In this document: one piece after another, positions 13,101 to 33,370 of the stretch
Layout: each line of letters opens with the position of its first letter
How positions within the stretch are numbered: position 1 is the first letter of the stretch
The notes under the pieces: model-generated
Told to the model about the DNA's origin: nothing
Databases searched by the model: none
What the model saw: only the letters and a program-made list of their open reading frames with translations
Position numbers and translations under genes: made by a program
DNA from: a virus
Strand: one strand, 5' to 3'
DNA length: 39,295 nt
IMG/VR virus record: IMGVR_UViG_3300037805_000804
Location: 1-39,295 of that record

Positions 13101-13619
13101 ATGAATTACAGTGTAACACAGTTCTGAAAAGAATTAGATAAAAGTAAATATACTTTTGATGGAGCTACTAAAACATTTAGTAGTAAAGAAAATAATCTAG
13201 TATTAGATTTTAATGATATAGATTGAATAACATTTGATACAGGTTCTAGTTGTACATTTAATACAGGTTCTGATTGTACATTTAAGACAAATTCAGATTG
13301 TACATTTAAGACAAGTTCTAGTTGTACATTTAATACAAGTTCTTATTGTACATTTGATACAGGTGTTAAATGTAAATTTAAGACAGGTTATAATTGTATA
13401 TTTGATACAGGAGGGAATTGTATATTTAAGACAGGTGAACTATGTGTAGTAGTAAGAAGAGATGTATATGAAATTATAGAATTAGAAGAATGAAAAGAAA
13501 TAAAATTGAATGAATATGGAGTTAAATGATATATAGTAATAGAAGAAGAAAAGAAAAAGGTTACATTAGAATTAACTAATGAACAGTTAGAAAAGATTAA
13601 AGACTTACTAACTAAATAA
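13101..13619 (+). CDS. Cys-octapeptide repeat protein, likely beta-solenoid (172 aa)
   Basis: Residues 44-115 consist of nine 8-residue repeats of the pattern [TIK]-F-[DNK]-T-[GSN]-x-x-C, with Cys exactly every eighth residue (C51, 59, 67, 75, 83, 91, 99, 107, 115). Such regular short repeats suggest a narrow beta-solenoid with a ladder of Cys residues, which could bind metal or stack. The flanks are ordinary soluble sequence, with a helical Leu/Glu C-terminus. The DNA is itself a degenerate 24-base tandem repeat. Function unknown. Confidence 0.75.
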
Positions 13620-14467: not shown

Positions 14468-14754
14468 AGTATAATAAAATCGCCGAAATGGTAATTATAT
14501 AAGTCCTCTCTTTTCCTATTAGGTTTTGTATTCTCGTAATATCGTACTTTTCATAATAGACCTTTTTCAAAAATCCATAGGTTAATTTTTGTACCATAGT
14601 AACCCAATAGGAAAGAGGAGCTTCTGGGGCTATAAAAATAAGGAGTGGGAATATATAGTAATATGTTGGTTGCATACAAAAAAAGAGCATTAATGCTCTT
14701 TTTTTGCTGTATGGAAAACAACATATTTCCTAATCATTGAGAAATACTTTTGTA
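14468..14754. other. Convergent non-coding region with long inverted repeat
   Basis: The plus-strand and minus-strand operons meet here. Motif copies at 14505-14525 (CCTCTCTTTTCCTATTAGGTT) and 14601-14618 (AACCCAATAGGAAAGAGG) are inverted and can pair over about 16 bp, enclosing an 80-base loop. A minus-strand open frame at 14457-14690 exists, but its ATG lies inside the terminator hairpin. I regard the region as non-coding and possibly structured RNA from either strand. Confidence 0.55.
14676..14703. terminator. Bidirectional Rho-independent terminator
   Basis: AAAAAAAGAGCATTAATGCTCTTTTTTT is a near-perfect palindrome giving a stem with A-run and T-run on the two sides. It would terminate both the rightward early operon and the leftward late operon. 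Confidence 0.85.
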
Positions 14755-20426: not shown

Positions 20427-21884
20427 TTAATCAGTTATAATATAAAGTGTTGAAACACTAGGTGTTGCAATGGCATCATATTCAGCCTGTGTTAAACTAA
20501 CAATATTAGTAATTTTGTCAGCTCAGGGTATTCAAGTAATACTACTAGGCACTCAAGGGTCTACCCATTCTGTATTATAGTCTGTTCAATCTATTTTAGC
20601 TAATTGTTGTCAAATAGTTCAGCCAACAGGAACTTTAGCTAAAGGAATTACGCTTCATAATTTATTTTTTTCAGCGTCTGTAAAAGCATTTGTATCAGCA
20701 TTTGCTTCATATTTAGTTTTTACTGAACCATTTGTTTCATCTCAAGTGTTTGTTCAAGATATAGCCCCTAATTTATTTTTTTCATTATCAGTAAAAACAT
20801 TTGTATCAGCATTTGCTTCATATTTAGTTTTTACTGAACCATTTGTTTCATCTCAAGTGTTTGTTCAAGATATAGCTCATAATTTATTTTTTTCAATGTC
20901 TGTAAAAGCATTTGTATCAGAATTTGCTTCGTATTTTTGTTTAACTTCAGCATTTGTTATTGTTGGAGTATTTACATATTCTGTACCCCCCCATCTAAAT
21001 TGCTTATTATCATCAAGAGTTACATATATTTTACCAGACTCTCAAGGAGTTGGTAGAGAAGCAAAATCTGCAAACTCTAATATATCATCTACATAACTTG
21101 GTAAATATTGACTATCTATAACAACTCAATCTCAAATTACTTCCATTATTGCTTTATTTTCCCAATAAGAAAGGGTGTTATTCCAAACAAGAGTATCTCA
21201 TTCTGCTTTATTAGTAATTAGTACATCGTGTAATTCATCTATTTCATATCCATTTTGGATTTTTGCATAGATTATTCAAATTGTTGGATTTGAATTTATA
21301 CACCAACCCAAGAATACTAAATGATTTGGAGTATCTGGTTTTTCATCAGTTATTCCTCAATCAACAGAATCTAACCATAAGGCAGCTCATTCTGCAAAAG
21401 CACTTGTGTCCACATTTGGTATTAAACCCAATAGAGTAATGAAACCCGATTGGTTGCTTCCTATTTCTTCAGCTGTAATTCAAAATGTAGAAGCACTTGT
21501 TCCTTCTGAAGAAGAATTAGCAAAATCTGCTGTTAGGTTTGTACCTCAAATACTTCAAGTTATTTTTACAACTTTTAGTATACCCATAGTTCATCAAGAA
21601 GTATTCCTAACTCTCTCTACTAATTGTTTACCATTTCTCAAAGTAACATTTCAACCTTTTAATCAAGTGTTAAATGTTCAACAGTTATCATTCCAAGCAA
21701 CTTGTCATTCTGTTACACTTTCGTTTGCAGAAGTATTAAAAGTCATCTTGTCAGTTATTATTAATTTCAAGAAATCTTCCTTTGTACATTTTTTACTAGT
21801 ATTTGTGGAAACATCTACATATTCAATTAAGTCTGGTTGGTCAGCTGTTCAAGGAACTAACTGAGAAATTTTTATTTCTGACAT
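20427..21884 (-). CDS. Tail fibre protein with 37-residue repeats (485 aa)
   Basis: The C-terminal third carries three repeats of the type KYEANADTNAFTDAEKNKLG, a very common phage tail-fibre repeat. The N-terminal part begins ISQLVP and includes DLIEYVDVSTNT, like a virion attachment region. The repeats are 111 bases apart in the DNA. It likely forms a trimeric fibre that recognises the host surface. TGA falls on the conserved Gly after NKL and in GTNTGDETNGSV. Confidence 0.8.
20659..20940 (-). repeat. Three direct repeats of 111 bases in the tail fibre gene
   Basis: Units start at 20659, 20770 and 20881 on the plus strand, exactly 111 bases (37 codons) apart. The first two are nearly identical; the third diverges after about 60 bases. 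They could expand or contract by recombination and change fibre length. Confidence 0.85.
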
Positions 21885-21902: not shown

Positions 21903-22034
21903 TTAATATTCTTCCCATACAGTATTTATACTGTCTTCTGTAACAAGCCTTTTTCAATCTTCCGTAATTCTAGTGTCTGTATTTTGTTCTAATTCACGGA
22001 AGATTAAGGCTTCGTCTTCTGTCCATATAGTCAT
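21903..22034 (-). CDS. Very small acidic protein (43 aa)
   Basis: ATG to TAA with one TGA. Acidic (TEDEALIFRELE, ITEDGKRLVTED, VWEEY), with a repeated TED motif. Located between the large internal virion protein and the tail fibre. Not recognised. Confidence 0.5.
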
Positions 22035-22045
22035 AATTTATTATG

Positions 22046-24592
22046 TTATTCAAATAAATTTGCTCCATATAATTTAGATAATTTTCTAAAAGCTCATCAT
22101 ATCCACTCAATTTGTAATATTCTTAATGCTTCTGGGTTAAGTTTAGATAAGTTTTCTCATTTTATTAGAGCATTTTTAAGTTCTCTAAAACTTTTTTCCG
22201 TAATAGATGTTTCAGTAACATCAAATCATTTTTCTATAAGTTTTTTATGAGAAGGAGTTATTTTATCTAATACTTTTCAACTTAATCATCTATACCATTC
22301 TACAAATCATTTTATATTTTTCTGTGTTTCTATTATTCTATGTACAGCTTTGTCTGTATCTCTGAAAAAACTTTGTACCATTTGTGCTTTAGGGTGGTAA
22401 CTACCTAATCATAATTTTTCTAATGACCTTCAGTATCATCTTAATATAAGTAATCTATCTATATATTTATCTGATAATCAACCAACTCATTTTAAGTTCT
22501 CTAAAGCAGATTTATCCATTTGAGAGAATCTTTTTAATGTTTGTCAATCTTCTAAGAATAATTTTTCTACAATTTTTCTATATCTATTTTGTTCTGATAA
22601 TTTAGATAATTCTTTCTCTAAAGTAGCTCTTTCTTTATTTAAAAGTTTTACAAAATCATCATTAAGACTTTTTGTTTCTGCTTTTGAATATAAGTCTTTA
22701 CCTAATTGTATATTAGATTTGATTTGAGGTATTACTTTTTTTGCAACAGCTCAAGACTCTATTTCTTTTAATTTATTTATTAATAAATTTTTATTAATTC
22801 AAGTAGATTTTACAAAAGCTGTTAATTTTTCTGGATTATCTATTAATTTTTTTATTTCTCTTAATGACGTAGGAGATAATGTTGTTTCTCAAGCTATATC
22901 TTCTTTTAGTAATTTTTGAACAGATTTTAATTTCTTAATGTTTTTGGAAAAAACATCTTTAGCTATTGTGTATTCTTTTCAAAATAATTTATTTAGTGAT
23001 TTTGATAATTCTTCTGAATATTGTGCATATAAATTAGCTTCATCTCTACTTGCTTTTGTTCATAATTTATCTAGTTGAGCTTTTGCTTTTATTGTTGCGT
23101 GAAATTCTAATAATTGAGATTTTGTAATTTTAGCATTTCTTTGTTCTATTTTAATAATAAATTCTTTAAATGCTTTTCATAATAATCTTTCAGCTTCCTG
23201 TGGAGTAGCTTCCATTATCTTAATTTTAAGTCAAGATTTACCAAATATAAGAGCAGCTTCTTCTTGTATATCTTTTATTACCCTTAATTTCATTTTATTT
23301 ATTCAAACACCTGGGTCTGTTCAAGGAGCTACTTTTGCTTTTATTTTTTTGAAAAAATTTACTACAGAAGTTCATTTATTAGATGATACAACTTCTGATG
23401 TTTTAAAGTCTCATATAACTTTTCATAAAACACCTCTTTCTTTATTAAGCATTCTTTCGTATGTTGGTACTCATTCCACAAACTCTCTTTCAGCTATAAT
23501 TCATTTTGCTATTAATTCTTCTTGTTTTTTAATTAAATCATTCTTTAATTGTCATAATTGAGTTTCTGCATTAGGAAATTTTTTAAGTAATATTTTTCAT
23601 TCTTGACTTCTTAATATTTTTAATCATTTCCCTTTAGCTTCTTTAAATATAGATTCTGCTATTTTTGGGTGTTTTTCCAAATAGAGAACAAGGTCATCAT
23701 CAAGTCCTGCTATTTTTTTGTGAAACCAATCTATTGTATTTGCTGATTGTTTAGGTGCAGCTTTAAATAATCCCCACGCTCATCAAATAGCTCTTGTTAA
23801 AAGAGGGAATGCTGCAGCAGATACTCATACATCTAACGCAGACACATCTCATTCTTGAACAATATTTAAACCTGCTGTAAATTTTCACATTTCAAGTGCG
23901 TCGTGTAAATATCTAGTAATTTTAGGAAACCTAGTAAGCATTTTACTTAAACCATTCCATTTAGACATAATGGTTTTTATTTTTGCAGGAGCTGTAACTT
24001 TTCAAGCACCAAAAACAACAGAAGCTAATTCTGTTATTCATTTTCACACATTATATCAAAAATCTTTATTTTGTCCTGTTGTTTCTACTATAAAGTCCTC
24101 TCACTCTTTTCATAGACTTCTTATTTTTTCAGAAATAGGAGTAATTGCTCAAAATTGTACATCTTCTTTATACTCTGGGTCTACTTGTTCTCTTAACCAT
24201 TCTCACAAACTAAAAACCCAAGCTCAAGTTTCTCATAAAACTCTTGGAACTCAAGCTGTAATACCTGTTGTCATAGATTCTCCAAAATCATCTACATTTT
24301 TTACATATTTTCATATCATTCAAGGTATAGTAGATTCTTTTTCTAATCTTTTTCTTTCATCTATTTGTTCCATTACTTCTTTTACTCTTTTCTTAGAATC
24401 TTCTTCTGAAGCATTAGGATTATTTTGTCTATATTTTTCTAAATTATTTTCAAATCTTTGTATTTGAGTAGTATATTTTTCTCTTAAATCTCTTTGGATT
24501 CATTCAGTATCTCATCACAATATTTGTAATGAGCTTTTTATAGAATCTTCTCCTGTGAAAAACCCTTTTATGTAGTCTAAAGGTGTAAACAT
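22046..24592 (-). CDS. Large virion protein, probable internal/ejection or tape-measure protein (848 aa)
   Basis: Mostly helical, Lys/Glu/Leu rich, with hydrophobic Gly/Ala segments near residues 190-280. It starts MFTPLDYIKGFF. The size and helical nature fit either a tape-measure protein or a podovirus internal (DNA-ejection) protein. The absence of recognisable tail tube and tail assembly chaperone genes favours ejection. The gene contains one copy of the CTATTTGG motif (23677-23693). Dozens of TGA codons are read as Gly. Family assignment is inference. Confidence 0.6.
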
Positions 24593-30873: not shown

Positions 30874-30914
30874 AAAAAAAACATAAACTATATGTAATAG
30901 TTTATGCTTTTTTA
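30874..30914. terminator. Terminator-like hairpin after capsid gene
   Basis: CATAAACTA and TAGTTTATG form a 9-bp stem flanked by A7 and T6 runs. It lies between the capsid and adaptor genes and may lower expression of downstream genes relative to the capsid. Confidence 0.75.
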
Positions 30915-30936: not shown

Positions 30937-32100
30937 TTATTCAGCATCTTGTGCTATAATTTGAAGTCTATACATTTTTTCAGCACCTTCAGTGAAGGTT
31001 TTCAATCAGTATCTTCACCAAGTCATGTAGCGAGTGGCAAGTTGTTTTTGAACATCTTGAACTTTTAGATTAACTTCTTTTTGTAGACCTAAATCTATAG
31101 AACCATTTTCCATTAATGCATTATTGATTATAACAGCACCACATTTATTAGCAGCGTTATCAAAATTAGAAGCAATAACTTTGTAACCTCTTTTAGAGGT
31201 AATTTCTAAGCTATTTCCTGTATCGTCATTAGCGATGATACCTTCTAATTTAGTTCTGTTTAGAGAAGTAACTTCTTTATAAGTAGTTCCAGCTCCAGAT
31301 AATCCCATAATTGCACTTCTTAAGTTAGCTCTAGTTGCAGCAACTGAAGCTCCTTTAAGAACATCTCAAGCGTTAGCTAAAGCAGCAACTATTTTGAAAG
31401 TTACACCATTAACTGTTAATGTGTCATTAGCAGTAGTAACAGCGTTTAAAGCAACTTCACAATATGCAGTTAAGTTTGTAGAAACATATAATCTCATATT
31501 TTGGAAAGAACCTTTATAACCTCTTTTAAATGTTTCATCAGAAACTTTAAAAGTATTACCGATAGCAGATTCTCCAATATCTGATAATTGGAATGGGTCT
31601 ACAGTTAGTGAAATATTAGCGTCATCAACACCTTCGTTGATTAATGAAGCGTAAGCTCTACCATAAGTATTAACAACATTTTTAGTAGCCCCTTCTGGAA
31701 TTAATTTAACAGCAGCAGCATTAGTGCTTCCTGCATTTAAAACTTCATTAAAGAAATTACCTTCTATATCTTGTTTAATTCTATATGCAGCTTTTGGAGC
31801 TTCTAAAGAAACAACATCGTAACCATTTTCTAATCCGTCAACTTCATCATATACAAAAGATATAATTGGAGTTTTATTGATTACTAATTCTTCATCTGCA
31901 TAGTTGATACCTTGGTCTTCAACATCTGTATATTTTTCATAAGAATCAACATTCATATATTGACCTCTTGGGTTTTTTAGTGAATTACCACCACTAATTC
32001 TTCTAACATTAGCTAAGTCCATAGCTATTAATCTTTCCTCTAGTAAAGATTGTACAGTTTTAGTATATAACTGTTTTATAAGTGCAGATACATTGTTCAT
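30937..32100 (-). CDS. Major capsid protein candidate (387 aa)
   Basis: Placed after portal and acidic scaffold genes and of usual capsid length. The N-terminus is helical (NNVSALIKQLYTKTVQSLLE), followed by mixed beta regions and an Ala-rich C-terminal part, compatible with the HK97 fold (P22-coat-like). The first 244 codons have sixteen Gly codons, all GGN; only three TGA occur in the whole gene. Its neighbours use TGA freely, so this gene appears tuned for high expression. No family motif was checked beyond context. Confidence 0.7.
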
Positions 32101-32145: not shown

Positions 32146-32730
32146 CTATTTTTTAATCATTCATTTAGCTCTAGCGTATTTCAAGAAATCAGCTCAAGAT
32201 AACTTAGTAGCTTCTTCCTCTGTTAAGTCTGTTATTTTTTTTCTAGCTTTAGTATTACTACTTTTACTAGAAAAATCTTTAGAACTTTTAGATTCTGTAG
32301 GTTTCTTTGCTTTAACTAAAGTAAGTAAATCATCTAAAGATAAATTGGGATATTTTTCAGATTCAGATTTCATTTCTTTTTTAAATTCAATTGCGTCTGG
32401 ATTTTCCAAAAAGAAAAATTTTAACTCATTATCATCTATTCCAGAATCATCATCTTCATCGTCGTCATCGTCCTCATCTCAATCGTCATCTGATTCTTCA
32501 AGTTTTTTTAATTTTGCTTTAAGTTCATCATTTTCAGATTTTAGAGTTTTATTGGCTTTTGACATTTTTTTCCAATTACTTTTTTTACTTATTTTTTTAG
32601 TAGAGGTTGTATTATCCTCACTATCATCTTCAGACTCATCGTCAGAGGTTGTAGTATCCTCACTAGAATCATCGATATAATCGTCGGCTGTGTCGTCAAC
32701 TATATCAAATTCTAATTCTTCATTAGGCAT
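32146..32730 (-). CDS. Acidic scaffold-like protein (194 aa)
   Basis: Long Asp/Glu/Ser runs (DDSSEDTTTSDDESEDDSED and a later D-rich tract), a short coiled coil (TLKSENDELKAKLKKL) and a basic C-terminus ending KGMIKK. This composition and the location directly before the capsid gene are typical of scaffolding proteins that bind the capsid through a basic tail. The Ser-rich frame on the opposite strand is a shadow. Confidence 0.7.
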
Positions 32731-32764
32731 ATTGCTAATTATTAGTTTATAAGGCTCTTTGGAG

Positions 32765-32922
32765 CTTAGAGTATTAAAACCCTAATTGTTACAATTTTGT
32801 AACAGTCGAGTGTTACAAAATTGTAATTTATTAGCTTTTTAATCTTAGAGTATTAAAACCCTAATTGTTACAATTTTGTAACAGTCGAGTGTTACAAAAT
32901 TGTAATTTATTAGCTTTTTAAT
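32765..32922. repeat. Perfect 79-bp tandem repeat of nested palindromes
   Basis: Two units of 79 bp (32765-32843 and 32844-32922) appear identical. Each contains TTACAATTTTGTAACA, a 6-base loop, and TGTTACAAAATTGTAA, a perfect 16-bp stem. Each arm also contains the self-complementary GTTACAATTTTGTAAC type sequence, so there are four palindromes in total. It lies between two head genes and reaches the stop codon of the upstream one. Confidence 0.9.
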
Positions 32923-33370
32923 CGTATACTGCTTCTTTATTTTCTTCTTCGTCTTCTTTTTCTGCGTCTATCATATAGTCAATTAATCAGTCAAACCATA
33001 TATAATCTTGAACTCTACCTCTTGTAAGGTCAAGTGCATTATATAATGGGCTTGAATTAGCTATACCATATTGGTCTTTCATTCCTCTTGTACAGTACTT
33101 TCTTATTCACTCAATATCTTTATCTATGTCTTCTATCATATATCAAACTCATTTATAGTCAAGTTTTTGTAATTCTTCTAACATAGTTATAAGGAATTCC
33201 ATTTTCTGATAATTCATATCGTGTATAGATACACATTGAGTATTATCTACATTTGGAAACGATTGCATAATCTCTACTTCCAATGCTTCTTGTTTATTTT
33301 TATTCTTTTCTAGTATTTCTTTATACTCTTTAGATTCTTTTAATATAGTCAATTCATTAATTTTACTCAT
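32918..33370 (-). CDS. Hypothetical head-region protein (150 aa)
   Basis: ATG to TAA; one long frame once the TGA at 33149-33151 is read as Gly. The N-terminus is a charged coiled coil and the C-terminus is acidic. It lies between portal and scaffold genes, so a head assembly or decoration role is possible. Its stop lies at the edge of the 79-bp tandem repeat. Not recognised. Confidence 0.65.

Follow-up and report, generated by a model that had tools for sequence, protein, structure and literature searches.

A conserved candidate RNA element, duplicated in tandem between head genes of a phage that reads TGA as glycine

What does a perfect tandem repeat, rich in nested palindromes, do between two head genes of a phage, and does it act as DNA or as RNA? 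The window (the whole stretch of DNA analysed, 39.3 kb) is an IMG/VR virus record, whose genes form open frames only under code 25, with TGA translated as glycine. This code is used by Absconditabacteria, Gracilibacteria and most phages assigned to Absconditabacteria (PMC10746230). Comparison of the portal and capsid with named phages gave no match, a search of bacterial genomes with the portal found no relative, and a terminase search of bacterial genomes returned matches in Bacteroidetes genomes only. Comparative sequence evidence identifies the repeat as two tandem copies of a conserved, predicted cis-acting RNA element in the scaffold-capsid intercistronic leader of the head operon.

The repeat and its setting in the head operon

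The head genes lie on the minus strand in the order terminase, portal, a 150-aa gene (gp150), repeat, a scaffold-like acidic gene and the major capsid gene (Table 1). The portal gene has a weak match to the SU10 portal, slightly below the curated cut-off. The AlphaFold model of gp150 is all-helical (pLDDT 86), showing no fold match at E<=0.001 and no known RNA-binding fold. The repeat had been described as separating two head genes, which can now be specified: it is flanked by the gp150 gene and by the scaffold-like gene, the latter immediately preceding the major capsid gene. The start of the scaffold-like gene lacks a Shine-Dalgarno-like sequence. Such sequences are absent from all 41 gene starts checked in the window (0/41; two of these were mis-set on non-start codons), and the starts come after A+U-rich stretches, which often contain the preceding gene's stop codon.

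TRF finds a period of 79, 2.0 copies and 100% matches at 32765-32923, and direct comparison within this one metagenome assembly confirms that the two 79-bp units are the same letter for letter. The repeat originally placed at 32765-32922 is thus real, while its unit limits had to be corrected to 32923-32845 and 32844-32766: on the minus strand the biological unit reads GATTAA...CTCTAA and begins on the gp150 stop codon. Each unit contains a perfect 16-bp stem of the form TTACAATTTTGTAACA-6 nt-TGTTACAAAATTGTAA, whose arm TTACAATTTTGTAA is in turn almost a palindrome, as the original prediction had stated for both features. Two further tandem repeats occur in the window, namely a 111-bp repeat (20655-20936; 2.5 copies, 91%) within a tail-fibre-like gene, and a 24-bp repeat (13230-13436; 8.6 copies) encoding CTFxTGS-like 8-residue repeats.

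Table 1. Positions of the repeat, its predicted helices and the neighbouring genes in the window
Feature	Position	Strand	Remarks
gp150 (150 aa), upstream gene	32918..33370	-	code 25 ORF; conserved in relatives; stop TAA = 32920-32918
Module copy 1, 79 bp	32845..32923	-	identical to copy 2; begins on gp150 stop codon
Copy 1 P1 5' arm ATTAAAAAGCTAAT	32909..32922	-	predicted fold; overlaps stop codon 32920-32918, pairs with 32865-32852
Copy 1 hairpin H1	32868..32905	-	16-bp perfect stem, 6-nt loop
Copy 1 P1 3' arm ATTAGGGTTTTAAT	32852..32865	-	predicted fold; overlaps H2
Copy 1 hairpin H2 TTAGGGT-TTTAAT-ACTCTAA	32845..32864	-	predicted fold; excludes P1
Module copy 2, 79 bp	32766..32844	-	identical to copy 1; second GATTAA outside gp150 frame
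Copy 2 P1 5' arm	32830..32843	-	predicted fold
Copy 2 hairpin H1	32789..32826	-	16-bp perfect stem; predicted fold
Copy 2 P1 3' arm	32773..32786	-	predicted fold
Copy 2 hairpin H2	32766..32785	-	predicted fold
Hairpin H3 GCTC-CAAA-GAGC, single	32754..32765	-	predicted fold; abuts copy 2 H2; counterparts in relatives
Scaffold-like acidic protein, 194 aa	32146..32730	-	start codon 32730-32728; named by position and composition only
Major capsid protein	30937..32100	-	phrog_267 major head protein, E = 3e-12
Terminator-like hairpin with U-run behind capsid gene	30875..30913	-	same-place hairpin in L003, L004, L008, L037, L042

A predicted fold and its conservation

In the mRNA sense (minus strand) the repeat is predicted to fold with -66.7 kcal/mol (z = -8.6 versus dinucleotide shuffles); of the 504 positions in a sliding-window scan of the window's right part, only one has a lower z. 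That lowest value (-9.5) belongs to a long hairpin at 21940-22060 (minus strand), which appears to be contained in a short open frame separating two genes of the tail region. In the predicted architecture of the element, a helix P1 encloses hairpin H1, followed by H2 and finally by H3. P1 and H2 are mutually exclusive, because P1 pairs the stop-codon region with the 5' arm and the loop stretch of H2.

Code 25 relatives were gathered by capsid, portal, adaptor, gp150 and terminase searches, and five distinct ones hold the region: L003 (=L007), L004 (=L005, L006), L008, L037 and L042 (=L055). A search for the unit in relatives, suggested along with the original prediction, retrieved it as a single copy in 5/5, downstream of the gp150 stop and ahead of the scaffold start. 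There, a hairpin of 10-12 pairs (H1; 16 pairs in the window) is followed by a small UUAGnn...nnCUAA hairpin (UUAAGC...GCUUAA in L037) and by an abutting third hairpin of the type GC(n)..(n)GC, with the H3 counterparts GCC-TTAAAT-GGC, GCGACC-TAAC-GGTTGC and GCTC-TTAAGT-GAGC. The distance from stop codon to ATG amounts to 96-103 nt in the five relatives and to 190 nt (111 + 79) in the window. The one extra unit of 79 indicates that the module P1-H1-H2 was duplicated, leaving H3 single. The doubled element is seen in the window phage only (five distinct relatives compared; one assembly), and since all five relatives carry one unit, the recent duplication that had been deduced from perfect identity is a fair reading.

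The relatives have extra genes (L003 4292-4786, L004 7344-8177, L008 7283-7849), some of them endonuclease-like; they are inserted either after the capsid gene or in the interval from portal to gp150, and the leader element is never interrupted. Distant relatives with the standard code (L016-L021; portal about 25% identical) have gaps of 127-207 nt at the corresponding place, preceding the scaffold gene in L016, L018, L019 and L021, and the capsid gene in L017 and L020. Those gaps that were folded are structured, with clear U-run terminators in L017 and L021.

The letters of H1 differ almost wholly between clades while its pairing is always kept, and the best pairing partner of every H1 5' arm is its own 3' arm. 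In three closer relatives 67 of 69 cells are paired (97%), dropping to 29-44% in slid registers, and six pairs are changed on both sides (1.9 +/- 1.2 in shuffles, 0-2 in slid registers). Shuffle tests on all six sequences, which are few and were treated as independent though they are related, yield combined p values of 5e-13 for H1, 3e-8 for P1 and 3e-7 for H2; H2 of L004 taken alone is not significant (p 0.09-0.20), and L037 has a weak P1. Six of 720 permutations reach the summed own-arm pairing of P1. The outer part of P1 covaries, the stop-side GAUUAA going with UUUAAU (UUUAAC in L004) and AUAAAA with UUUAU.

A covariance model was built from L003, L004 and L008 only and searched against 24 sources (348 kb). 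Held-out sequences were matched at the leader site in window copy 2 (32844-32752; E 0.004), L042 (0.0048) and L037 (0.055); the remaining matches are window copy 1 or antisense mirror images of the element. The model did not find the element in the standard-code L016-L021. Matches score better on the mRNA strand or occur there only, and among the non-Watson-Crick cells, read in mRNA sense, 13 are G-U versus 3 A-C, which argues for an element acting in the mRNA sense rather than as DNA. At the level of sequence comparison, these data make a good case for a conserved mRNA-sense RNA, and the element very probably represents an RNA family. A loose three-hairpin descriptor, with about three chance matches per 40 kb strand, is unspecific as a genome-wide finder, and as it is so common by chance, only recurrence at one place counts. 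Rfam, including riboswitches and phage packaging RNA, gave no match at gathering score, with miRNA and snoRNA below threshold only; lax thresholds added only spurious matches. In the limited literature collection searched, nothing pertinent turned up on structured leaders of phage capsid genes.

Possible functions of the element

Acting as DNA, the repeat might comprise paired operators of a dimeric regulator, a packaging site or a cruciform, and the four exact TTACAANNTTGTAA sites within it, with none elsewhere in the window, would suit such a role. Yet these sites are confined to the window phage, which makes operators unlikely, and self-complementary H1 arms are likewise a trait of this phage, with a shorter one in L004. 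The relatives keep the cross-loop pairing of arm to arm in unrelated sequences, rather than a sequence or self-palindromic arms, and conserved palindromic half-sites were not found among them. The dimeric-regulator operator put forward originally is thus not supported, and the packaging signal offered beside it is disfavoured by the excess of G-U over A-C and by the model matches on the mRNA strand. Overall, a DNA element is very unlikely. A mobile palindrome (REP/MITE-like) or an assembly artefact, as a perfect repeat within a metagenome assembly might suggest, is hardly credible: the genome holds no other copy, the exact double-palindrome pattern occurs 0 times in 2.9 million viral contigs (a collection that may lack records very close to the window), and one unit is orthologous in the relatives. 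Moreover, assemblers more often collapse repeats than invent them, and given this behaviour two units may be a minimum.

At the RNA level, the fold could be a translational operator, bound by a head protein that represses or paces scaffold and capsid synthesis, with two copies providing higher affinity. The location ahead of the scaffold and capsid genes and the partly conserved letters of H2 and H3 (UUAG, CUAAGC) would agree with this, but the letters of H1 are free to vary and no RNA-binding protein was recognised, the gp150 model being without a fold match; we consider such an operator quite improbable. Somewhat better placed, though still unlikely, is a ribosome-coupled attenuator or translational switch, where ribosomes at the gp150 stop would choose between P1-H1 and H2, and thereby directly tune elongation or scaffold translation. 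In 6/6 sequences P1 and H2 share an arm, with P1 predicted to be favoured over H2 by a gap of only 0.5-3.9 kcal/mol, and a UAA stop codon always lies at the P1 5' arm; hence, as in ribosome-controlled attenuators, one of two exclusive helices overlaps the end of a translated frame. The H2 loop also changes along with the stop context (UUUAAU with GAUUAA, UUUAU with AUAAAA). Against this stands that no U-run follows H1, H2 or H3 (sequence 32700-32940) and that covering the stop-codon arm hardly alters the predicted openness of the scaffold start (-20..+13) in 6/6 sequences, so that the predictions reveal no switch in terminator or start-codon access.

Several simpler candidates were discarded. 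An intrinsic terminator or a terminator-type attenuator was rejected because the stem lacks an immediate U-run, and a terminator search had no minus-strand match at the element. Sequestration of the scaffold start codon was rejected on predicted access. Readthrough of the stop codon would yield no useful product, as the gp150 frame closes 19 codons on at a TAG.

That the element affects scaffold-capsid output is probable, and we tentatively favour a processing or stability barrier, which would set the mRNA segment for scaffold and capsid apart from that of the packaging genes. Among the roles originally envisaged, mRNA processing or control of head-protein ratios is the best reading in view of the conserved fold, whereas classical terminator attenuation fails for want of a U-run. 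P1 stacked on H1 would form a rod of about 19-28 bp starting from the upstream stop codon (about 22-28 pairs in 5/6 sequences and about 19 in L037, a length appropriate for an RNase III site, for which some 20 bp or more between genes would be expected), with H2 and H3 after it. The fold of H1 being kept while its letters are free, a process recognising double-stranded RNA is favoured. The rod may act as a double-stranded barrier or cleavage site that splits the terminase-portal-gp150 message from the scaffold-capsid message; protection of the latter would allow larger amounts of scaffold and capsid, and the terminator-like hairpin behind the capsid gene, with a U-run in the window, L004 and L008, would close the segment. 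We infer that a ribosome ending gp150 on its stop codon could open P1, leaving only H1 plus H2, and might thus couple processing to gp150 translation. RNase III needs about two turns of double-stranded RNA, whereas H1 by itself has 10-16 pairs; with an enzyme of this requirement, a ribosome on the gp150 stop would, by opening P1, protect the message. The GATTAA of copy 2, the copy adjacent to the scaffold gene, is no longer a stop in use, which limits any ribosome coupling to copy 1.

More speculatively, and with considerable doubt, the elements may represent a novel family of bistable RNA switches located between cistrons. Of the two competing helices, one would contain the stop codon of a structural gene, so that termination on a head gene sets processing, and hence scaffold-capsid mRNA output; one phage would then possess a doubled module, whose second copy is uncoupled from any stop in use. 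Tailed phages solve the excess of scaffold and capsid from a polycistronic head operon in differing ways, and where the starts checked have no Shine-Dalgarno-like sequence, control by mRNA structure may weigh more. Little is known of gene regulation in the uncultured TGA=Gly bacteria; in their phages, an RNA family supported by covariation and without an Rfam match is also of interest. The doubled copy provides a natural experiment separating the fold from the stop codon.

Comparison with known systems

The R sites of phage T7 are RNase III processing sites between genes of a polycistronic mRNA, where shape matters over sequence. Like these, the element would form double-stranded RNA between the cistrons of a phage message, and it conserves shape more than letters. 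In contrast to the R sites, its 5' arm holds the upstream stop codon, an alternative hairpin competes, and its cleavage is putative only. The phage's own intrinsic terminators (14677-14706; 30875-30913) are, as the element, long A+U-rich intergenic hairpins, but they end in a U-run, which the element lacks. That at 14677-14706, a perfect 15-bp hairpin flanked on either side by A and T runs, lies between converging gene arms as a two-way terminator.

A further parallel concerns ribosome-controlled attenuators, such as those of amino-acid operon leaders, the tandem attenuators of mgtCBR (PMC3641672) and the pil1 leader (PMC3894217). The element differs in having a full structural gene upstream instead of a leader peptide, and no terminator U-run, whereas it shares with them mutually exclusive helices beside a stop codon and a tandem arrangement.
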